A stretch of 14,188 bases of DNA from positions 1 to 14,188 of the forward strand of contig JACPSX010000025.1 in NCBI GenBank assembly GCA_016193065.1, in the 5' to 3' direction. The DNA is from Candidatus Tectimicrobiota bacterium (GTDB lineage Bacteria > JACPSX01). Below, one piece after another: positions 2 through 14,188 of this stretch. A program made the position numbers and the translations under genes. The notes under the pieces are model-generated. The model made no database searches. It was not told the DNA's origin and was given only the letters and a program-made list of their open reading frames with translations. Within the stretch, counting starts at the first letter, position 1. Every line of letters starts with the position of its first letter.

Positions 2-514
2 GAAGACCGAGCAGCGCCGGCATTCGGTGCACTGGTAGAAGTAGTAGAACCACTCCTTGAGGACACCTTCGATGAGATCGCGCGCTCCGGCCAGGCCGCG
101 CAGGATCCGGCCGGCGAGCGTGAAATACCTCCGGTAGACCGAGCGCACGAGCTCGGCGCGCAGGACCGGCATGTTCTTGGGATCCCCGGAGCCCAGGTAG
201 AACTGGCACTTGTCCGCGCAGGCCCCGCAGCGCACGCAGATGTCCATGAAGAGGCGGAAAGAGCGGTACTTCTCCAGCCTCTCCTTCATCCCCTTCAGGA
301 TGATCTCTTTCCAGTTCGGGGGGAGCTTCCAGTCCTCGTCATAGGGCTGCCACTTGCGCGGGTTGGACAGTCCCAGGTATTCCAGGTGCTTGGGCAGGGC
401 GCTGTAGCAGAAGACCCCTTTGCGGAACTCCACGGCCGGATCTCGCCAGTCCTTCTCGGGGGGGCTGTAGTCGATGCGGGCGACTTCTTCGGGTTTGGGG
501 GATGGTTCCGCCAT
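2..514 (-). CDS. dsrK: DsrK, Hdr-like iron-sulfur subunit of DsrMKJOP (partial, cut by window edge)
   Basis: The frame opens at an ATG at 514 and stays open to the window edge, giving the first 171 residues of a protein normally over 500 long. Cysteines C93, C96, C99 and C103 form a CxxCxxCxxxC [4Fe-4S] motif, and C162, C165 and C168 begin a second one that is cut off. This N-terminal ferredoxin pattern, with the partner dsrM directly upstream, fits DsrK, the cytoplasmic HdrD-like subunit thought to reduce the DsrC trisulfide. The start lies three bases after the dsrM stop, and a purine-rich ribosome site sits in the end of dsrM, so translation is probably coupled. The catalytic CCG domains expected in the C-terminal half lie outside the window and cannot be checked. 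Confidence 0.9.
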   Translation of the reverse strand, partial: MAEPSPKPEEVARIDYSPPEKDWRDPAVEFRKGVFCYSALPKHLEYLGLSNPRKWQPYDEDWKLPPNWKEIILKGMKERLEKYRSFRLFMDICVRCGACADKCQFYLGSGDPKNMPVLRAELVRSVYRRYFTLAGRILRGLAGARDLIEGVLKEWFYYFYQCTECRRCSVF

Positions 515-517
515 GTT

Positions 518-1510
518 CTAGCCCTTCTCCAGAGGCAGCCCGGCCGTCCGGATCTTGTCCCGGAACTCCTCTTCCCACTCCTCGTAGGTGTGGACCTTGA
601 CCGGGTAGTCCCAGGGATTGACGTGTCGCTTCATGCGGTTGTTGTTGGCCAGGTTTCTCGTGGGGCTCAGAAAGACCCCCGCCATGTGCATGAGCTTGCT
701 GAAGGGGAAGTAAGCCACCAGAACGCTCAAGAGGAAAAGGTGAACAAAGAACAGCGGCCCCACTTCTTTGGGTATGACCGGTGAGAAGGTCACCAGGCCC
801 ATGGCGAGCTGCTTGGCGGCCACCGTGTCGATACGGAAGAAGTACCGCATGAGGACTCCGGCGAGGACAACCCCGAGCAGCAGGTAGAGGACGAAGTAAT
901 CGGTGAACAGGGAGACGTAGCGTACCGGGGCGTCCCTGAGCCTCCTGAACAGCAGGTAGCCGAGCCCCGCCAGAATCAGAATGTCCGTCATGTAGAGGTC
1001 CGGCACACCGATCTGGAAGAACCCGTCCAGTCCAGAGAGCAGGTTCACGAAACCGGGGATCGGTTCCAGGAAGAAGCGCAAGTGCCGCAGGAGGATGAAC
1101 AGGAAGGACCAGTGAAAGGCCAGGGCGGCAAGCCAGAGGGCCTTGTTTTCCCCGTAGACGAGCCTGGGACCCGCCCGGAGCTCCGCCCGGGTATTGCGGA
1201 AGAGGGACCGGAACAGTCCCACCTCCAGAGCCATCCGGGCCACCACACCCGCTGTGGAGTCGGGGCTCTCCAGCCATCCGGTCTTGATCCACGGCAGGGA
1301 TTTCTGCTGCCCGCAGGTGGTGGGTATGCGGAAGGGGACGGGAGAGCGGGCCCAGCCCGCGACCCTCCAGGCGACTCCCAGGAGAAAAAGAGTGAGGGCG
1401 GCATAGGGTGCCAGGACGCCGAACAGAAGTCGCAGGGGCTCGACCAGGCTCCCCAGGAAGGGGACGGCGGCCAGGACGAGCACCAGGAGGAGCGAATTCA
1501 GCGCCTGCAT
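518..1510 (-). CDS. dsrM: DsrM, NarI-like membrane cytochrome b subunit
   Basis: A 330-residue membrane protein with about five or six hydrophobic segments (around residues 4-24, 30-50, 124-148, 172-190, 200-222 and 252-270). H133 and H143 in one helix region and H257 and H275 near the end are candidate axial ligands for two b hemes, as in the NarI/HdrE family. DsrM takes electrons from the menaquinol pool and passes them to DsrK for reduction of DsrC trisulfide. The tail after residue 285 is charged and probably cytoplasmic. The ATG at 1510 has GAGGGA just upstream and lies six bases after the preceding gene. The following dsrK starts three bases downstream, as expected for a DsrMK module. 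NarI alone is unlikely because no nitrate reductase genes are near. Confidence 0.92.
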   Translation of the reverse strand: MQALNSLLLVLVLAAVPFLGSLVEPLRLLFGVLAPYAALTLFLLGVAWRVAGWARSPVPFRIPTTCGQQKSLPWIKTGWLESPDSTAGVVARMALEVGLFRSLFRNTRAELRAGPRLVYGENKALWLAALAFHWSFLFILLRHLRFFLEPIPGFVNLLSGLDGFFQIGVPDLYMTDILILAGLGYLLFRRLRDAPVRYVSLFTDYFVLYLLLGVVLAGVLMRYFFRIDTVAAKQLAMGLVTFSPVIPKEVGPLFFVHLFLLSVLVAYFPFSKLMHMAGVFLSPTRNLANNNRMKRHVNPWDYPVKVHTYEEWEEEFRDKIRTAGLPLEKG

Positions 1511-2072: not shown

Positions 2073-2393
2073 CTAGACGCAGCCCGTGGGCTTGGGGAGG
2101 CCGGCCACCTTGCAGGCCCCCTTGGCCGGGCCGGACGGGAAGAGCTCGTAGATCTTCTTGAGCTGGAAGCCGGTCTCCTTGCAGAGCTTGCGGATCATGG
2201 GGGCGATCCTGAATTCCTGGTAGTAGGTCCGCAAGTAGCGGACCACCTTCCAGTGATCGTCCGTCATCGGCTCGATCCCTTCCTCCCGCTTGGCGATCTC
2301 GGCGGCCACATCCTCATCCCAGAGCTCCGGGTTCTGGATGAACCCGTCCTCGTCCACCTCGAATTCCTTTCCTGCCAGGACAACGGTTCCCAT
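2073..2393 (-). CDS. dsrC: DsrC, sulfur-carrier protein of dissimilatory sulfite reductase
   Basis: A 106-residue protein of normal DsrC length, with the hallmark C-terminal arm: C94 in GACKVAGLPK and penultimate C105 in PTGCV, ten residues apart. Both cysteines being present marks a true DsrC able to carry the trisulfide, rather than a TusE-like relative lacking C94. The arm inserts into DsrAB, where sulfite-derived sulfur is bridged between the two cysteines; DsrMK(JOP) then reduces the trisulfide. The conserved NPELWDEDVA and FRIAPMIRKLCKETG segments are also present. The ATG at 2393 has AGGGGAG about seven bases upstream. A stem-loop just upstream of that ribosome site may tune its expression separately from dsrAB. 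It lies between dsrN and the RsbRD-like gene. Confidence 0.97.
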   Translation of the reverse strand: MGTVVLAGKEFEVDEDGFIQNPELWDEDVAAEIAKREEGIEPMTDDHWKVVRYLRTYYQEFRIAPMIRKLCKETGFQLKKIYELFPSGPAKGACKVAGLPKPTGCV

Positions 2394-2404
2394 CTTTGCT
2401 CCCC

Positions 2405-2426
2405 TTTCACATGGCGCCTTGTGAAA
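2405..2426 (-). promoter_or_regulatory. Stem-loop between dsrN and dsrC, just upstream of the dsrC ribosome site
   Basis: Perfect seven-base arms (TTTCACA and TGTGAAA) flank an eight-base centre that contains the self-complementary GGCGCC. In the transcript the hairpin ends right where the dsrC Shine-Dalgarno AGGGGAG begins. There is no U-run after it, so it is not a classic terminator. It could be an mRNA processing or stability element, or a protein binding site; the function is inferred. Confidence 0.45.
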
Positions 2427-2434
2427 TGGTTCCT

Positions 2435-3973
2435 TCAGCTTCCTCTTGTTTCCCCCCTCACCCCGACCCTCTCCCGCCCCTCAACCTCACCTTCCCCCCA
2501 CAGGGGAGAAGGGAGGGATGAGGGGTGAACTGCGGCAGCGCGACGGCGGTTTGCGTGCAGTCGCGCCTGTCGGACCAAAGCGCTTGCCCATTCGCGGGTC
2601 CCGCCCGCATGGAAGTGACAGAACGAAGCGAGGACGTTCTTGTACACGAGACCGTCCCGTTTCCCGTCGAATCCGTAGCCGCGCTCCATGCGGAAGGCCA
2701 TGCGGAGAGCCCCGGGCCGGGCGCCGCGCACGCGGGAGTAGCGGAATTCGTGGCCCCGCAGCACGGTCCCCGCAGCGAAAAACGGATTGGTTTCCCCCAC
2801 CTCGACCCGGGTGTATCCGTGTCCTTGCGGTCGGCTGCCCAGCTCGAAGGTCACCGGGAAGACGCCCACCATCGGTTGAGCCACGCCTTCCATCACCATG
2901 GCCTCCCCGAGATAGATCAGGCCGCCGCACTCTGCGATGACGGGGAGTCCAGCTTCGATCTCCCGCCGCAGGGCTTTCCGGAATCCGGAATTGGCCGCCA
3001 GTGTTCCCGCGTGGGTCTCGGGGTACCCCCCGCCAATGTAAAGCGCGTCCAACGGGGGAAGGTCAGGATCGGTCAGGGCATTGATCTCCACCAACGTGGC
3101 CCCAAGGCGCTCCAACGCCTCCAGGTTCTCGGGGTAATAGAAGGTGAAGGCGCTGTCTCTCACGACCCCGATCCGTACACCCCGTGCGGAACCCAACGAT
3201 TTCACCTCATTCGATTCGGATGTCCAGGTGAGGGGAGGCACGGCGGTGGCCAGAGCCCGAATGGCTTCCAGGTCCGCATGGTTTTCGACCGCCCGGCGGG
3301 CGACCGTGATCGGCAAGGCTGCCTCCCGATGTTCCGCCGGAGTGAGGAGCCCCAGGTGCCGTTCCGGAAGCTCCGTGTCCGGGAGGCGGGGAATACTTCC
3401 CAGCACGGGCAATCCGCAGATCTCCTCCACGGCCGTTCGGATCGCCGCTTCCTGACGGGGTGTGGCCACCCGGTTTAAAATGACGCCCGCCAGATGCACC
3501 TCGGGGTCCATCCGCTGGCACCCTAAAACCATGGCGGCTACAGTGCGCGTCGCTTTCGTGCAATCCACCAGGAGAACCACGGGCGCTTGCAACAGTCTGG
3601 CCAATTCGGCGGTGCTGCCGGCCGGGTACCCAGGCCCAGGGTCTGGGTGGGCGTCCAGGCCGTCGTACAGACCGTGGTTTCCCTCCACCACCAGGATGTC
3701 CGCGCCGCTGCCGTGCTCCCCTGCGGAGAAGAGAATTTGCTTCTCGGACATCAGGTAGGTATCCAAATTGCGGCACGGTCGGCCGGCAGCCAGGGTAAGC
3801 CAGGCCGGGTCAATATAATCCGGGCCTTTCTTGAACGGGGCGACCCGGATTCCCTGCGCACGCCAGGCCGCGATGATCCCCATGGTCACCAGGGTCTTGC
3901 CGGTGCCGCCTCGCAGGCTGCCGATCACCAGCCGGGGACAGGGCTGACTCTTTACTGCGGTTTCGTTGCGCAT
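2435..3973 (-). CDS. dsrN: DsrN, CbiA-like siroheme amidase (cobyrinate a,c-diamide synthase family)
   Basis: A 512-residue protein from the ATG at 3973. The N-terminal ATP-dependent amidoligase domain has a P-loop at G22-G23-T24-G25-K26-T27 and a KKGPDYIDP segment (48-56). The C-terminal half is a class I glutamine amidotransferase-like domain with nucleophile C349 in AECGG and H453/H455 in FCHFHAGG. In dsr clusters this family is DsrN, thought to amidate siroheme to the siroamide used by DsrAB; biosynthetic CbiA/CobB is the alternative, but no cobalamin genes are near. A GTG at 3997 would add eight residues encoded by repeat-like sequence, so 3973 is preferred, although its ribosome site (GGGAG) is modest. 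The last 31 residues (482-512, from 2530 down) are translated dispersed repeat, so the native C-terminus probably ended near residue 481. Confidence 0.93.
   Translation of the reverse strand: MRNETAVKSQPCPRLVIGSLRGGTGKTLVTMGIIAAWRAQGIRVAPFKKGPDYIDPAWLTLAAGRPCRNLDTYLMSEKQILFSAGEHGSGADILVVEGNHGLYDGLDAHPDPGPGYPAGSTAELARLLQAPVVLLVDCTKATRTVAAMVLGCQRMDPEVHLAGVILNRVATPRQEAAIRTAVEEICGLPVLGSIPRLPDTELPERHLGLLTPAEHREAALPITVARRAVENHADLEAIRALATAVPPLTWTSESNEVKSLGSARGVRIGVVRDSAFTFYYPENLEALERLGATLVEINALTDPDLPPLDALYIGGGYPETHAGTLAANSGFRKALRREIEAGLPVIAECGGLIYLGEAMVMEGVAQPMVGVFPVTFELGSRPQGHGYTRVEVGETNPFFAAGTVLRGHEFRYSRVRGARPGALRMAFRMERGYGFDGKRDGLVYKNVLASFCHFHAGGTREWASALVRQARLHANRRRAAAVHPSSLPSPLWGEGEVEGRERVGVRGETRGS
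2453..2530. repeat. Dispersed GC-rich inverted repeat (copy 1), overlapping the dsrN 3' end
   Basis: A run rich in CCCCTCACCCCG, CCCTCTCCC and GGGGAGAAGGGAGGG that can fold back on itself. It resembles the widespread CCCTCACCC...GGGAGAGGG type of dispersed repeat seen in many bacterial genomes. A related copy lies at about 3981-4045. Read in the dsrN frame it encodes the characteristic proline, glycine, glutamate and arginine-rich peptide SLPSPLWGEGEVEG. Confidence 0.7.
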
Positions 3974-3980
3974 TACCCGC

Positions 3981-4045
3981 TCCCGGTCCCCCCCCACCCC
4001 ACCCTCCCCCTCGGAGGGGGGAGGGACAGGGAGGGGGTGAGAAAG
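3981..4045. repeat. Dispersed GC-rich inverted repeat (copy 2), between dsrD and dsrN
   Basis: A C-run/G-run inverted repeat. The core stem pairs CCCTCCCCCTC with GGAGGGGGGAGGG, and outer arms CCCCACCCC and GGGGGTGAG also pair. It shares character with the copy at 2453-2530 that lies at the other end of dsrN. It fills most of the 88-base gap between dsrD and dsrN and could form a strong hairpin in the mRNA, reducing read-through or protecting the upstream dsrAB message. Confidence 0.65.
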
Positions 4046-4061
4046 GCATTTTCAGACAGGC

Positions 4062-4313
4062 TTAGATCTCCGTGCCCTCCTCGGGAGGTAGCTCAACGAA
4101 GCTCCCCCCGTAGTACGTATAGACGCAGCGCCCGGAATCCATGAGGCGGCGCAGGGCCTCCTTGCAGGCTTCCTTGCTGCAGCGCTCCGGGCCGAAGTGC
4201 TCCATCATGGCCTTGGTCAGGTCCGTGGGCTTGAGCTTCTTGACGCCGGTGGCTTCCTTGACCATCCGGTACATCGCTTCCGACAGCTCCTCGATCGTGA
4301 CGGGGTTCGCCAT
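4062..4313 (-). CDS. dsrD: DsrD, small winged-helix protein, allosteric partner of DsrAB
   Basis: An 83-residue protein, close to the roughly 78 residues typical of DsrD, immediately downstream of dsrB as in known sulfate reducers. It shows the helix-helix-helix-hairpin pattern of a winged helix: a helix near residues 7-20, LTKAMMEHF (32-40), CKEALRRLMDSG (50-61), and a wing VYTYYGGSFVELP (64-76). DsrD has been reported to stimulate sulfite reduction by DsrAB rather than act as a DNA-binding regulator. The ATG at 4313 has GAGGAGG upstream and lies ten bases after the dsrB stop; an upstream in-frame extension would overlap dsrB and is rejected. C45, C50 and C63 are present but form no recognised metal site. 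Identification rests on length, fold pattern and position. Confidence 0.85.
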   Translation of the reverse strand: MANPVTIEELSEAMYRMVKEATGVKKLKPTDLTKAMMEHFGPERCSKEACKEALRRLMDSGRCVYTYYGGSFVELPPEEGTEI

Positions 4314-4323
4314 GGTGCCCTCC

Positions 4324-5406
4324 TCACGACTTGATGTGCACGGAACGCTGGTAGGTAAGACCGGCATGCCGGAAGTCGTCAATGTGCTGCTTGGTGAACG
4401 GGATACCGGTCTTCTGGAAGAAGCGGGGCCAGCCAATCCGCTCGATCCACTCGCCCATCCGCTCGTACTTCCGGGCATCCTTCGCCCACACCTCCACGAT
4501 GTTCTTCACCGCGGCCACCACCTCCGGCCAGCGGGGGGGATTGTTGGGCAGGTACGGGATCGCCAGTTTGGAGAACATCGGGGCATGCCGGGCGTTGCTG
4601 ACCTTTCCCCCTACCCAGATGGACACGCCGTCGTTCAGCGCGTTGCTCAAGGGCATGGCGGGGCACACCGTGTAGCAGTTGCCGCAGAACATGCACTGCT
4701 CCTCGATGACCTCCACCGTCTCTTTTCCGTTGATCCGCTTGGGGCGGATGGCTGCGGTGGGGCAGGAAGCCACCACCGTGGGGATCTCGCAGATCTTGGA
4801 GAGCTTCTCCTGGTCGACCTTCGGCGGCCGCCGGTGGATCCCCAGGATTGCAATGTCCGAGCAGTGCACCGCCCCGCACATGTTCAGGCAGCAAGCCAGC
4901 GCCAGCCGCAGCTTGGCCGGCAGCTCCATGGTCTGGAAGTGGCCGATCAGTTCGTCCATCACCGATTTTACGATCCCCGAGGCGTCGGTGGCTGCCGAGT
5001 GGCAGTGGATCCATCCCTGTGTATGGACCATGCTGGAGATGGCGTTTGCGGTTCCACCGACCGGAAAGCCTCTCGTTGTGAGCTCAATGATCAGAGGCCC
5101 CACCTTGTCCGGGTCGGTGAGCAGGAACTCGATGTTGTGGCGGCTCGTGAAGCGCAGGTAGCCGTCGCTGTAGGTGTCCGCCAGGTCGCAAAGCTCGCGG
5201 ATCGTCTGAATGCTCAAGAGCCGCGGCGTCCCGGCCCGCACCGTGTAGAGCTTGTCTCCCGATTCCGCCACATGAACCAAGACCCCGGGCTGAACGATCT
5301 CGTGGTACTTCCACTTCCCGTAGTTTGCCTTCACCACCGGGGGCAGGAACTTTTCGTAATGAGGAGGGCCGATATCGGTCTTCCGTTCCGCAACGGTGTC
5401 AGCCAT
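4324..5406 (-). CDS. dsrB: DsrB, dissimilatory sulfite reductase beta subunit
   Basis: A 360-residue beta subunit of the DsrAB heterotetramer, which reduces sulfite at a siroheme-[4Fe-4S] centre in the cytoplasm. Cluster ligands fit the DsrB pattern: C135 in [12 protein letters not shown], then C172/C173 and C177 in [12 protein letters not shown]. The inserted ferredoxin domain carries C238, C241, C244 and C248 in [16 protein letters not shown]. The C-terminal block [18 protein letters not shown] is typical of the family. The ATG at 5406 has AAGGAGA upstream; a longer open frame exists but overlaps dsrA. It begins 23 bases after the dsrA stop and ends ten bases before dsrD. Length and all key cysteines are intact. 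Whether it belongs to the reductive or oxidative DsrAB branch needs a tree. Confidence 0.98.
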
Positions 5407-5429
5407 GGCTTTCTTCTCCTTACAATTGT

Positions 5430-6650
5430 TCACCCTTCGGTCTCGCTCGCCGCTTCGGGCTCTTCTTCGAAGTACTCTTCGTAGAACACGTAGGGGTTCT
5501 CCCGGGGATGGGCCACCATTTCGGGCTTCGGCTCCAGGCCGATGGCCTCCAGGAAATTGCCCAGGCCCACGCGCTGGATGAACTCCCCGACCCGCTCCCG
5601 GCTCTTCCCTTCCTCGGACCAGAGGTCCAAGATCTTTCCCACCAGCTCCTTCAGCTCGGTGTAAGGCGGTTCCATCTTCATGAACGGCACCAGGACCGAG
5701 GAGAGCATCGCCCCCTGCACGATCGGCGCTTTCGAGCCGATGAGGATGACGGCCCCCCTCTCCTGGCCGGGGCGCAGGGCCTTGGGCATGGCGTTGATGC
5801 AGTGCATGCACTTCACGCACCACTCGTCGGCGATGCGGAGTTCCTTCCCGTTCCAGGACATGCACTGGCTGGGGCAGCGCTCGCAGACGTCGGCCTGGAT
5901 GTCGATTCCGTTTTCCGTGTACTCCTTGAGGGCGGCTTGGTCGATCTGGATCTCGTCTCTCCAGGTGCCGATGATGCTCAAGTCCGCCCGGGCGATGGCC
6001 GCCACGCAGTCGTTGGGGCACCCCGAGGCCTTGAACTTGAACTTGTAGGGGAAGGCCGGACGGTGCAGTTCGTCCTGGAAGTGCATGGTGATGTCGTAGG
6101 TGAAGTTCAGGGTGTCGTAGCAGGCCCACTCGCAGCGGGCCGGCCCGACGCAGCAGCTTGGTGTCCGGACGTCCGACCCCGACCCGCCCAGGTCAAACCC
6201 GGCCTTCGTCAGATCGGCAAACGTAGATTCCAGCTCTTCCGTGCGCGTTCCCAGCAGGATAATGTCCCCGGTAGAGCCATGGAGATTCGTAAGTCCCGAG
6301 CCGTGTCGCTCCCAGAGGTCGCAGATGGCGCGCAGGGCCTCGGTCCGATAAAACCAGCCGGCCGGCTGGTTGACCCGCAGTGTGTGGAAGTGGGCGACGT
6401 TGGGGAACTTCTCGGGGACGTCGGAATAGCGGCCGATGACGCCGCCCCCATAGCCCCGCACCCCCACGATCCCGCCGTGCTTCCAGTGGCCGACCTTCTC
6501 CTCGTACGAGAGTTCCAGAACCCCCAGGAGGTCCCGGGCCATGGGGCTTTTCGTGGCGGCCCGCTTGATCTCCCGCACAAAGCTGGGCCACGGCCCTTTC
6601 TCCAGTTCGTCCAGCTTCGGTGTCTGAGAGGGCTTGTTCTCATCACCCAT
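5430..6650 (-). CDS. dsrA: DsrA, dissimilatory sulfite reductase alpha subunit
   Basis: A 406-residue alpha subunit. The siroheme-coupled [4Fe-4S] ligands are visible as C167-x5-C173 in the segment [10 protein letters not shown] and C211-x3-C215 in GCPNDC. The inserted ferredoxin domain uses C256, C259 and C263 (VCERCPSQC) with C278, C281 and C284 (CVKCMHC), ending in the usual [23 protein letters not shown] (65-77) and the NQPAGWFYR segment (94-102) are conserved substrate and cofactor-side regions of the family. The ATG at 6650 is preferred because GGGAGG precedes it at good spacing and the start lies 35 bases after dsrL; the upstream extension overlaps dsrL. The subunit pairs with DsrB and receives DsrC's C-terminal arm. 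Confidence 0.98.
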
Positions 6651-6685
6651 TGTTGTCTTCCTCCCTGGTGCGACGGCCTCGGGGC

Positions 6686-8365
6686 TCACACCATTTCGAT
6701 GTAGCCGCAGGGGCATTCCTCTGCGCACTTCTTGCAGCCCTGGCAAAACTCCAGCTTGAACCGGTAGGGTTGGCCCTTCTCGAAGGGCTTGATCACGGCC
6801 TGGTCCTGGCAGTACTTCCAGCAGTTGTCGCATTCGGAGCACAGGCCGCAGCTCAGGCAGCGCTTGGCTTCGGCGATGACCTGTTCGCGGGTCAGGCCCA
6901 GGTTCACTTCCCGGTCCGGGTCCTGCAAGCGCTCGTCTACCGGGACACGCTCCATCTCCGTGCGTGGCTGCTTGGGGTAATAGTCCAGCCGCATCCGGTC
7001 ATAGGTGATCACCGGAGGCGCAGGAGCGGACTCCACCGGGGTTCCTCGCAGCCGGGAGTGGATAACCTCGGCGGCGCGACGGCCATGGAAGATGGCGGTG
7101 GTGACGATTCCCAATTCCAGGACGTCGCCGCCGGCGAAGGCACCCGGCACTGTGGTTTCCCCGCGGTCGTCTACCGGGATTCCTCCACGCTCGGCTGTGA
7201 AAGACTCCAATCCGGTGAAGTCCGGCTCCTGGCTGATTGCCGCAATGATAGTACTGGCGCCCACGTAGAACTCGGAGCCCGGGATCGGTACCGGGCGGCG
7301 CCGGCCGCTGGCGTCCGGCTCTCCCAGTTCCATCCGCAGGCAGGTCAAACCCACAGCGCAGCCGTTCTCGGTCGCCACCGCGGATGGCGCTGCCAGAAAT
7401 TCGATCTGGATCCCCTCGCGCTTGGCTTCCTCCACCTCCTGCCTGATGGCGGGCATTTCCTGGATGGTTCGGCGGTAGAGGATGGTGGTTTTGGCTCCCA
7501 GGCGCGCCGCCGCGCGGGCCGCGTCCACAGCGGTGTCTCCGCCGCCCACCACGACAACCGTCTTCCCAACGTCCGGTCGCTCACCCGCGTTGACGCGGTG
7601 CAGGAACTCCACGCCGGAGAGCACGTTTGGCGCTTCATCCCCCGGAACCCCGAGGGAGAGCCCTCGGTGTGCGCCGATGCCGACGAAGATCGCCGCATAG
7701 ACCTGGCGGAGATCTTCGTAGGGCACGTCCTTCCCCACCATCGTTTCACAGCGGAGCTCCACGCCCAGGGCAAGAATCCGCGCAATTTCCGCGTCCAGGA
7801 TTTGGCGGGGCAGGCGGTAGGTCGGGATGCCGTAGCGCAGCATGCCGCCTGGCTTCGGGAACGCCTCGAACACCGTCACCGGGTAGCCGCGGCGGGCCAG
7901 TTGGTAGGAGCAGGAGAGACCGGAAGGGCCAGAACCAATTACTGCGATCTTTTCCGGGAGACGATCCTCGCTCAGGCGACGCAGCGGGAATCCTTTCTCC
8001 AGCGCAAAGTCCCCGATGAACCGCTCCAGACAATTGATCGAGGCGGGAGCATCCAAGTGATTCCGGTTGCACGCTTCCTCGCACGGGTGGGGGCAAACCC
8101 GTCCGCACACGGCCGGCAGGGGGTTTCGCTCCGCGATGATATAAAACGCCTGCTCGAAGGCCTGGTCGTACGATTTCCCGTGGGTCTCGGCCTGGGCAAT
8201 GTTGGTGAGGACGGCGCGAATGTCCGTGTGGTTCGGACAGACGTCCGAGCAAGGCGGCGTCTTGAGCACGAACTGGGGTCTGAGCGGCGAGGTTGCTCGT
8301 GCACCTGGCCCTGCGGCTATGCCGGAGAGTCCTCCGAGCTTTCGAACCTTCTTGATGACGGGCAC
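6686..8365 (-). CDS. dsrL: DsrL, NAD(P)H-linked iron-sulfur flavoprotein
   Basis: A 559-residue protein built like the glutamate synthase small subunit with added ferredoxin domains. In order: an N-terminal Fe-S domain (C39, C43, C87, C91, C95, C99), an FAD Rossmann motif GSGPSG (144-149), an NAD(P)-binding motif GGGDTA (274-279) followed by R298-R299 suggestive of NADP(H), the second FAD motif GGD (412-414), and a C-terminal ferredoxin-like domain with C503, C506, C509, C512, C515, C519 and C541, C544, C547, C551. This domain order and the position beside dsrA identify DsrL, which passes electrons between NAD(P)H and DsrAB/DsrC. The start is a GTG at 8365 with AGGAGA upstream. It is the first gene of the operon, about 63 bases below the predicted start point of a sigma-54 promoter. 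Whether it is DsrL type 1 or 2 needs a tree. A GltD-like paralogue is less likely in this context. Confidence 0.92.
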
Positions 8366-8439
8366 CTGGGAGCTCTCCTTTCTATCACCCGGCTCAATTC
8401 GGCAATCGGCACACCCGTTCCCTCACGTTCTTATCCCAA

Positions 8440-8454
8440 GCAAGGACTTTGCCA
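8440..8454 (-). promoter_or_regulatory. Predicted sigma-54 (-24/-12) promoter of the dsr operon
   Basis: Read on the minus strand this is TGGCAAAGTCCTTGC, with GG and GC separated by ten bases, against the consensus TGGCAC-N6-TTGC. It would start transcription near 8428, about 63 bases upstream of dsrL. Paired palindromes lie 75-125 bases upstream, as expected for enhancer sites. The core is also a near-palindrome (GCAAAG-T-CCTTGC), so a repressor operator is a possible alternative. Confidence 0.7.
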
Positions 8455-8519: not shown

Positions 8520-8535
8520 GTTACCCAAAGGTAAC
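8520..8535. promoter_or_regulatory. Palindromic enhancer/operator site D1 (dsr side)
   Basis: GTTACC-CAAA-GGTAAC, a perfect six-base dyad with a four-base spacer. It lies between the small HTH gene's stop and the dsr promoter. Its centre is 31 bases (three helical turns) from the next copy, so proteins bound at both would sit on the same DNA face. Near-identical sites precede the exporter gene at 10586 and 10618. Confidence 0.72.
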
Positions 8536-8538
8536 AGG

Positions 8539-8817
8539 TCATCCCTGCACGTTACCTTTCGGTAACGCGGGGGGCCATGAAACACCCAGATGCTTCAGCT
8601 TCTTCCACAAGGTCTTCCGGCTGATCCCGAGGATCCGGGCGGCCCGAGCCCGGTTTCCTTCCGTGATTTTCAGGACAGAGAGGATGTGCTCGCGCTCCGC
8701 CTCTTCCCGCACTTTCCCAAGCGACTGGTCCTGTACACCAAGAGGAAATGGCTCCATCGCCTGTGCTCTCTTTCTCATGTTGGATGCCATCGCAAAAAGA
8801 GAATGGACACGGGGCAA
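8539..8817 (-). CDS. Small Fis/NtrC-type helix-turn-helix DNA-binding protein
   Basis: Up to 92 residues. The C-terminal half (about residues 42-80) closely matches the Fis-type HTH at the end of NtrC-family sigma-54 activators: a REHILSVLK helix, the GNRARAARILGIS turn region, then RKTLWKKLKHLGV. No AAA+ or receiver domain is encoded upstream; the frame meets a stop within about 15 codons above the first start. It is therefore a stand-alone HTH or a remnant of a larger activator. The start is uncertain: TTG at 8817, ATG at 8790, 8778 or 8757 are possible and none has a strong ribosome site; the HTH is intact with all of them. It lies directly upstream of the dsr operon in the same direction and is the obvious, though unproven, candidate to bind the nearby GTTACC palindromes. 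Without an AAA+ domain it could not itself open a sigma-54 promoter. Confidence 0.75.
   Translation of the reverse strand: MPRVHSLFAMASNMRKRAQAMEPFPLGVQDQSLGKVREEAEREHILSVLKITEGNRARAARILGISRKTLWKKLKHLGVSWPPALPKGNVQG
8551..8566. promoter_or_regulatory. Palindromic enhancer/operator site D2, inside the 3' end of the HTH gene
   Basis: GTTACC-TTTC-GGTAAC, perfect dyad, extended by one matching base on each side (8550-8567). It overlaps the last codons of the small Fis-type gene, so a bound protein could also affect transcription through that gene's end. Confidence 0.72.
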
Positions 8818-10432: not shown

Positions 10433-10496
10433 GTTTGTTCCTCCCCTAAGAAATGAAAGCAGATTGCGGCGGACTCGATATCCATCCTTCTCAATA

Positions 10497-10511
10497 GCAA
10501 GGACCTTGCCG
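10497..10511 (-). promoter_or_regulatory. Predicted sigma-54 (-24/-12) promoter of the exporter gene
   Basis: On the minus strand it reads CGGCAAGGTCCTTGC, with GG-N10-GC spacing and the same TCCTTGC downstream half as the dsr promoter. The predicted start point near 10485 leaves a leader of roughly 52 bases. The core GCAAGG-A-CCTTGC is a perfect palindrome, so an operator reading cannot be excluded. Confidence 0.68.
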
Positions 10512-10585
10512 GATGAACAACTCGTCGGAAGCGCTGGAGAAAGCGTGTCTTACACGCCAAGGGGGGTCGGAGCGCTCGAGTAGAG

Positions 10586-10601
10586 GTTACCGAATGGGAA
10601 C
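10586..10601. promoter_or_regulatory. Palindromic enhancer/operator site E1 (exporter side, one mismatch)
   Basis: GTTACC-GAAT-GGGAAC, the same dyad as the other copies with one substitution in the right arm. Its centre is 32 bases from site E2 and about 96 bases upstream of the promoter's -12 element, nearly the same geometry as on the dsr side. Confidence 0.6.
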
Positions 10602-10617
10602 ATTCCTTGGAGAAACG

Positions 10618-10633
10618 GTTACCTCTCGGTAAC
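10618..10633. promoter_or_regulatory. Palindromic enhancer/operator site E2 (exporter side)
   Basis: GTTACC-TCTC-GGTAAC, perfect dyad, extended to GGTTACC/GGTAACC at 10617-10634. It lies between the tctA stop and the exporter promoter. It lacks a T-run on either strand, so it does not look like a tctA terminator. Confidence 0.7.
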
Positions 10634-12780: not shown

Positions 12781-14154
12781 CTAATCCATCCCGGCTTTCA
12801 GCGCCGGGAGCATTTCCTCGACCATCTTGCTTGACTCCAGAATCATCCGCCGGAACTCGCCGGCAGAGGCCGGGGCCAGGGTGAAATCGGACCTCCTGGC
12901 GATGGCCACGAAGGCGGGGTCGGCCACCGCCTTGGCGGTGGCGCTCTCCAGGGCCTTCGCGATGTCCTCCGGCATCCGGGGCGGACCGAGGATCCCCAGG
13001 GAAATGTCGAAGCCGACGTCGCGATAGCCCAGTTCCACCAGGGTCGGAACCTCCGTAAAGGAATCGTGCCGCTTGGGGCCAAACCCGGCAATCACCCGGA
13101 TTCGCTTCTGCTCCGCCAGGGGGCTGAAGCTCACCACGCTGCCGGTGGCCATGTCCACCTGCTTGGAGATCACCGCGAGGGCGGCTTCGGTGCCGCTGTC
13201 AAAGGGGATGTATTTGACGTTCAGGCGCACCTTCTCCTTCAGGAGAACGAAGGCCAGGTAGCTGTTGTTGCCGATGCCGGAGCCCGAGACCTTGATGCTT
13301 TTCTGTTTCCCCAGATTCTTGAGGTCCTCCAGGGTCTTCAGGGGCGAGTCATAAGGCACAGCCAGGTAGTTGTAGTCCCCTCCGGTGATGTTGTAGATCG
13401 GGGTCATCTCCTCCATCTTGTAGCCGGGGTTGTCCATCTTCTGGGAGATCATGGGGGCGGGAACCCCGGTGAGGACCAGGGTGTAGCCGTCGGGCTTTGC
13501 CTTGTAGACCTGGTTTCTTCCCACCTTCCCTCCGGCCCCGGCCACGTTCTCGATCACGACGGGGGCGTTCAGGTACTTGGACAGGAAGGGCTGAAGGGTG
13601 CGGGCCACCTCGGGGTACTGGATGTCCCCGCACACGAGGACTCCCAGGCGCCCGATGGGGGTGTCCACGACGGGGAAGAGCGCCTCCTCGCCGAACACCT
13701 CGATGAATCGCCGGTAGACGTCCCCCGGACCCGTGTAGGTCGTGTTCAGATTGTTGGGTCCGTTGTGCTTTCGGTAGGTCAGGACGATTTCGCCCCGTGG
13801 GTCGATGATCACCGTGGTGTTGAAGTAGCGGCCCGGGAACTCGGGGTGCCGCTCCAGGAAGTGGCCGACCAGGTAAATCTCGAACTTCCTGGCCGTCTCT
13901 CCGAGCAGATCCGTGGCGAAGTTGGGGATGGGCAGGGCGATTTCGATCCATTCCTCCGTGGATCTGGGGCGGTACTGGCCGAACAGGGAATACTCCCCGG
14001 TAACTGCCAGCTTGACCTCGCCGATGCGGTGGAAGAGAAACCCGATCAGGTCGGTGATCCGGCGGATGTTTGTCTGGATGTGGCTCTCCCGTTCCTCCAG
14101 GCGGCGGACTACCTGACAGGGGCTTTGAATCAAGACGCCGTCGTAAGGGTCCAT
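12781..14154 (-). CDS. Chimeric frame: nitrilase-family N-terminus fused to signal-less TctC/Bug solute-binding protein
   Basis: A 457-residue open frame with two unrelated halves. Residues 1-187 are the first part of a carbon-nitrogen hydrolase (nitrilase superfamily), with plausible catalytic residues E54 (TGEYSLFGQY), K129 (TYRKHNGPNN) and C175 (LVCGD), but the fold stops about ten residues after the cysteine. From about 183 the sequence is TctC/Bug: LQPFLSKYLNAPVVIENVAGAGG, KAKPDGYTLV, then a complete C-terminal part. The usual signal peptide and first roughly 50 residues of TctC are missing, so this protein should not reach the periplasm. The join falls on VARTL, a motif that fits both families. 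The ATG at 14154 has a strong GGGAGGA site. tctB and tctA follow. Likely neither half works; a real deletion between neighbouring genes or an assembly join are both possible. Confidence 0.8.
   Translation of the reverse strand: MDPYDGVLIQSPCQVVRRLEERESHIQTNIRRITDLIGFLFHRIGEVKLAVTGEYSLFGQYRPRSTEEWIEIALPIPNFATDLLGETARKFEIYLVGHFLERHPEFPGRYFNTTVIIDPRGEIVLTYRKHNGPNNLNTTYTGPGDVYRRFIEVFGEEALFPVVDTPIGRLGVLVCGDIQYPEVARTLQPFLSKYLNAPVVIENVAGAGGKVGRNQVYKAKPDGYTLVLTGVPAPMISQKMDNPGYKMEEMTPIYNITGGDYNYLAVPYDSPLKTLEDLKNLGKQKSIKVSGSGIGNNSYLAFVLLKEKVRLNVKYIPFDSGTEAALAVISKQVDMATGSVVSFSPLAEQKRIRVIAGFGPKRHDSFTEVPTLVELGYRDVGFDISLGILGPPRMPEDIAKALESATAKAVADPAFVAIARRSDFTLAPASAGEFRRMILESSKMVEEMLPALKAGMD
13594..13608 (-). 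other. Junction between nitrilase-like and TctC-like coding sequence
   Basis: Residues 183-187 (VARTL) of the chimeric frame. Upstream, CGDIQYPEVAR matches the nitrilase pattern after the nucleophile; downstream, ARTLQPFLSKYLN matches the TctC pattern after its GGGTD-type motif. The join is in frame with no stop, consistent with recombination over a short shared sequence. Confidence 0.7.
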
Positions 14155-14188
14155 GCCTTCCTCCCTCGCGTTCGGAACAAACCTCCAC

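Follow-up and report, generated by a model that had tools for sequence, protein, structure and literature searches.

At glnAp2 of Escherichia coli, NtrC acts through two strong dyads, which lie about three helical turns apart and about 100-140 bp upstream of the sigma-54 start. The stretch of DNA analysed here (the window; 14,188 nucleotides of contig JACPSX010000025.1 from a Candidatus Tectimicrobiota bacterium) possesses paired dyads of similar spacing and upstream position, which differ from glnAp2 in operator sequence, predicted signal and targets. Another NtrC-type regulator, AioR, binds GTT-N10-AAC, as detected by DNase I footprint (PMC5335332). The dyads of the window, with a length of 16 bp, fit this frame. 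However, their inner half-site is ACC/GGT, and the predicted targets are dsr, a YeiH-like exporter and sulfur-type molybdopterin enzymes. Similar to AioR and ArxR-like proteins, the candidate activator encoded on contig C274 of the same genome is a receiver-AAA-Fis regulator beside a sensor kinase, and its relatives adjoin ArrA-like enzymes (L102, L103) and a putative periplasmic binding protein (L112). Nevertheless, an AioX-like gene was not identified at C274, where the gene upstream of the kinase is unannotated. A match on a Bosea plasmid (H28) was considered as a possible AioR and set aside, no aioX being annotated nearby. On the sensor side, c-haem Cache domains are described as NO-binding when fused to signalling modules (preprint, PMC12889525), and similar to the Tll0287/DUF3365 sensors of that type, the kinases of the system described here possess CXXCH in their periplasmic part.

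Two units on the minus strand of the window, the exporter and the dsr operon, are each preceded by a pair of dyads with the consensus GTTACC-N4-GGTAAC upstream of a sigma-54 site (Table 1). The -24/-12 sites show GG-N10-GC, with the consensus TGGCAC-N5-TTGC. The centres of the exporter dyads are 32 bp apart and lie 96 and 128 nt above the -12 GC; those of the dsr dyads are 31 bp apart and lie 87 and 118 nt above it. The distance from promoter to dyads differs between both units by about 9 nt, near one helical turn. The preliminary description, made from the window alone, had proposed the exporter promoter with its two dyads and a geometry common to both sides, and both proposals agree with these positions.

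Table 1. Features of the window, with positions counted from its first nucleotide.
Feature	Position	Strand	Remarks
dsrK-like ORF after dsrM	2-514	-	runs off the window
dsrM	518..1510	-	
dsrA, dsrB, DsrD-like ORF, dsrN, dsrC	2073..6701	-	Pfam PF01077, GATase_3/CbiA, DsrC
DsrD-like small ORF after dsrB	4065-4313	-	no Pfam match
dsrL, first gene in the dsr operon	6686..8365	-	
sigma-54 -24/-12 promoter of dsrL	8439..8454	-	TGGCAAAGTCCTTGCT; kept in L099 and L100
dsr proximal dyad	8520..8535	-	exact
HTH-only (Fis-type) protein, 72 aa	8539..8757	-	helix LGISRKTLWKK; longer start up to 8817 possible
dsr distal dyad	8551..8566	-	exact
YeiH-like putative exporter, 508 aa	8906..10432	-	PF03601
sigma-54 -24/-12 promoter of exporter	10496..10511	-	CGGCAAGGTCCTTGCT; GG-N10-GC; kept in L099 and L100
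exporter proximal dyad	10586..10601	-	GTTCCCATTCGGTAAC; one mismatch
exporter distal dyad	10618..10633	-	GTTACCGAGAGGTAAC; exact
carbon-nitrogen hydrolase part joined to TctC receptor part	12781-14154	-	gene fusion or assembly chimera

The exporter had been described as a putative sulfate/sulfite exporter of the YeiH type. Its protein passes the wider Pfam model PF03601, but stays far under the cut-off of the NCBI YeiH model TIGR00698 (80.5 against 232.6 bits); transport of sulfite or sulfate is taken from annotation and is regarded here as putative. In the dsr operon, dsrA, dsrB and dsrC are supported by Pfam matches, and dsrL shares 78-82% identity with its counterparts in L033, L099 and L100. 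The gene dsrD, to which the small ORF after dsrB shows likeness, is a marker of the reductive dsr operon. In three dsr genomes, all incomplete bins, aprA was not found above its cut-off, which fits reduction of sulfite rather than sulfate.

Dyads were counted by pattern search of the own genome (G000; 2.9 Mb in 294 contigs, with 86% completeness), using the reversed motif as control. With one mismatch at most, the dyad was found in 18 places, compared to one for the control, and a two-mismatch search revealed no further sites above background (61 against 56 in the control). Sixteen of the 18 dyads fall into nine pairs, two of which have a two-mismatch partner, and the spacing within pairs is 30-32, once 22. 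A composite pattern of half-site and sigma-54 site, GGTAAC-N60-86-GGYA-N6-TTGCW, has exactly eight matches in this genome and none in the control. By chance, a sigma-54 site is expected in the right 30-nt slot at 1.7% of positions; eight of the nine pairs have one (p ~5e-14, assuming independent positions). In the window, the paired pattern occurs three times, and none was found in 200 shuffles. A pair on contig C65 (7971/8003, L005 7971-8018, 32 bp apart) lacks a good sigma-54 site on either side. The preliminary description considered the double match unlikely by chance and named an abundant, randomly placed motif as evidence against its proposal; the genome scan detected no such abundance or scatter. 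Chance palindromes are ruled out by the shuffles, the reversed controls and the conservation footprint in relatives.

The eight target promoters of the own genome include those of dsrL, the exporter, and arylsulfotransferase-like, TatA and cytochrome c genes. The others precede a molybdopterin reductase-NrfD unit, a nitrilase-like gene, and an operon on C274 after the kinase and regulator genes, which encodes another molybdopterin enzyme, NrfD and a second YeiH-like protein. Five of the eight promoters are clustered on C65. The ends of this contig and of the window (C65:23582-23917, L006 3582-3917; window 13853-14188) overlap in dovetail fashion by 336 bp with 98.2% identity, and C65 probably runs into the minus strand of the window. 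If the overlap is real, seven of the eight promoters lie in one island.

A scan with the pair pattern, covering 84,980 species with one genome each, revealed 45 stretches; the pattern was shaped on the own-genome sites, so the relatives found this way are a biased sample. The kin of the own genome were resolved at the "same domain" level only and were uninformative. Among the stretches are L099 (from Candidatus Methylomirabilota NC_groundwater_1465) and L100 (from NC_groundwater_1287, a MAG named Chloroflexi). In both, the order of the exporter, the HTH-only gene and dsrL-A-B-N-C-M is retained, in a comparison covering the dsr genes apart from the DsrD-like ORF. Both also keep the two promoters and the two dyad pairs. 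In these two relatives, 23 of 24 and 22 of 24 half-site columns and 16 of 17 and 15 of 17 promoter columns are invariant, compared to only 13-29% of the DNA between these elements. The four sites of dsr and exporter are the only dyads with one mismatch at most in the genomes of L099 and L100, and the regulon there is therefore literally composed of two units. The two-unit regulon of the preliminary description holds for these MAGs, but not for the own genome with its eight promoters. That exporter and dsr belong to one response, as it also proposed, is strongly supported by the common operator, promoter type and geometry, and by their retention in both MAGs. The dsr-exporter cluster of L051/L100 (JACQOS010000087.1) shares 68-87% protein identity with that of the window; the name Chloroflexi may be wrong, or the cluster may have been transferred.

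Contig C274 encodes a sensor kinase and an NtrC-type response regulator, which possesses a receiver, a sigma-54 AAA+ domain with GAFTGA and a Fis-type HTH. A dyad pair follows 39 nt after the end of the regulator gene. Among the 13 NtrC-type HTHs of the own genome, the helix LGISRKTLWKK is present only in this regulator and in the HTH-only protein of the window, and the genes of both touch dyad pairs. A reverse test, which starts from the regulators and is free of the sampling bias of the dyad pattern, found a dyad near four of seven regulators with SRK[TA]LW helices and near none of 23 others (Fisher p ~0.0013). In the own assembly the C274 regulator is unlinked to dsr. An 80% identical regulator is present on the dsr-exporter contig of L100/L101, and another 80% identical one lies at a contig end in G082, with no dyads.

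Genes for a kinase, the regulator and the HTH-only protein occur together with dyads in L102, L103, L104 and L181 (Rokubacteria, deltaproteobacterial and related MAGs), where ArrA-like, TtrA-like or other molybdopterin reductases are encoded downstream of the dyads. More distant regulators (about 37-45% identical) were found near the same dyads in Desulfobulbaceae, Thermodesulfobacterium, Myxococcales and Sulfuricella, with NapA-, TtrA- or ArrA-like enzymes or a YeiH-like gene as neighbours; in Thermodesulfobacterium, the related regulator, the dyad and the YeiH-like gene are adjacent. Kinases with one CXXCH in the sensor part are present in both the close group and the NapA-linked group. Unlike the Tll0287/DUF3365 sensors, the own kinase does not reach PF11845; its only match is to PF21563, below threshold (16 against 27 bits) and spanning CYKCH. 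A match to PF11845 (77 bits) was obtained for L106, a distant kinase linked to NapA. A search for rpoN detected the gene in G059 and in four further genomes with the system, but neither in G060 nor in the own bin (86% complete, with 13 NtrC-type HTH genes); its absence from the own bin is likely an assembly gap.

The activator is likely the C274 response regulator, working with the CXXCH (haem-type) kinase, and we are fairly confident that exporter and dsr are two members of one sigma-54 regulon under this switch. The kinase, which has a periplasmic c-type haem motif, would phosphorylate the regulator. Dimers of the regulator would then occupy both dyads, which are separated by about three helical turns, and would oligomerise and loop the DNA. 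The regulator would open sigma-54 polymerase at the -24/-12 site, whose GC and the nearer dyad are about 87-100 bp apart. Such a switch would turn on at least eight promoters in the own genome, as a programme for sulfur-anion respiration in which the co-induced exporter could vent excess sulfite. An unlikely alternative is that the regulon is real, but governed by a different sigma-54 activator, for instance the GAF-GAF-AAA-Fis protein of C65 (L005 9703-11991), leaving the C274 regulator in control of its own operon only. The C65 protein possesses GAFTGA and is encoded within the cluster of five of the eight promoters; however, its recognition helix (LLGLTRSQLYTRLK) differs, no dyad adjoins its gene, and across phyla the dyads track regulators of the C274 type.

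The preliminary description included neither this activator nor the HTH-only gene, which lies between exporter and dsrL and holds the distal dsr dyad in its 3' end. In L099, L102, L104 and L181 the distal dyad encodes the last residues and the stop of the protein, for example GTT ACC GAA GGG TAA C for V-T-E-G-stop; in the window, the ORF is shifted in frame over the dyad and stops a few codons beyond it. The interval between exporter and HTH-only ORF showed no terminator on the minus strand, and the ORF therefore probably belongs to the exporter transcript. Similar to the DNA-binding domains of Fis and NtrC, the protein has an HTH_8 domain and a predicted Fis/NtrC-type fold (Foldseek E ~0.03, probability 1.0, for a small domain). 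It is shorter than Fis, has the helix of the regulator next to it and terminates within or shortly after an operator, and unlike the NtrC-type domains it stands alone. Seven family members show dN well below dS, and in a tree of 42 columns only the family forms its own clade beside the HTHs of the regulators.

The HTH-only protein is probably a second ligand of these dyads that dampens activation. Its simplest reading is a competitor of the activator, and an accessory role is possible. More tentatively, and with some doubt, it may represent a dedicated partner of a sigma-54 two-component activator, kept across phyla, which competes for the dyads and sets a threshold on dsr or other anaerobic respiration genes. 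If true, this would give NtrC-type activators an accessory of an unusual kind. The shared helix, the purifying selection, the separate clade and the position at operators would also suit a main dyad ligand, acting at dsr as a Fis-like repressor or DNA shaper with the activator elsewhere. We consider this improbable, since a protein without AAA+ domain cannot itself open the sigma-54 complex, and the dyads of the C274 and L182 units are present without an HTH-only protein.

GTTACC dyads were also observed as pairs that lack sigma-54 sites, in Flavobacterium (L036, L048, L053), roseobacters (L035, L044, L045) and Lachnospiraceae (L034, L067), which shows that such a sequence can have other origins. 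That the dyads of the window are RNA hairpins, terminator remnants or mobile palindromic repeats is nevertheless very hard to reconcile with their fixed distances above sigma-54 sites here and in relatives, the absence of terminator-like sites coinciding with them, and their few genome copies, mostly confined to these promoters. The pairs of these groups and of Paracoccus and Burkholderia were rejected as members of the system, since they lack both a regulator homologue and a strong sigma-54 site; those of Flavobacterium, roseobacters and Lachnospiraceae are probably other elements.

Control of a dsr operon by sigma-54 or an NtrC-type regulator was not found in the open-licence literature, and the main text of the Desulfovibrio vulgaris sigma-54 regulome paper mentions neither "dsr" nor such a motif. 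In the proposed regulon, sulfite reduction is linked to a putative exporter, and dsr comes under the control of a group of regulators found elsewhere beside arsenate-, tetrathionate- and nitrate-type reductases. An uncultured sulfite reducer might in this way switch on respiration and a safety valve together. With a candidate switch, exact DNA sites and eight target promoters named, the proposal is testable without culturing.

Similar dyads were also observed at six loci of Desulfobulbaceae and relatives (L106, L108, L110, L111, L114, L117), where genes for CXXCH kinases flank molybdopterin reductases, which are NapA-like in L106 and L108. CXXCH-bearing cytochrome-like genes are present at the same loci, and the group possibly constitutes a separate anaerobic respiration regulon.
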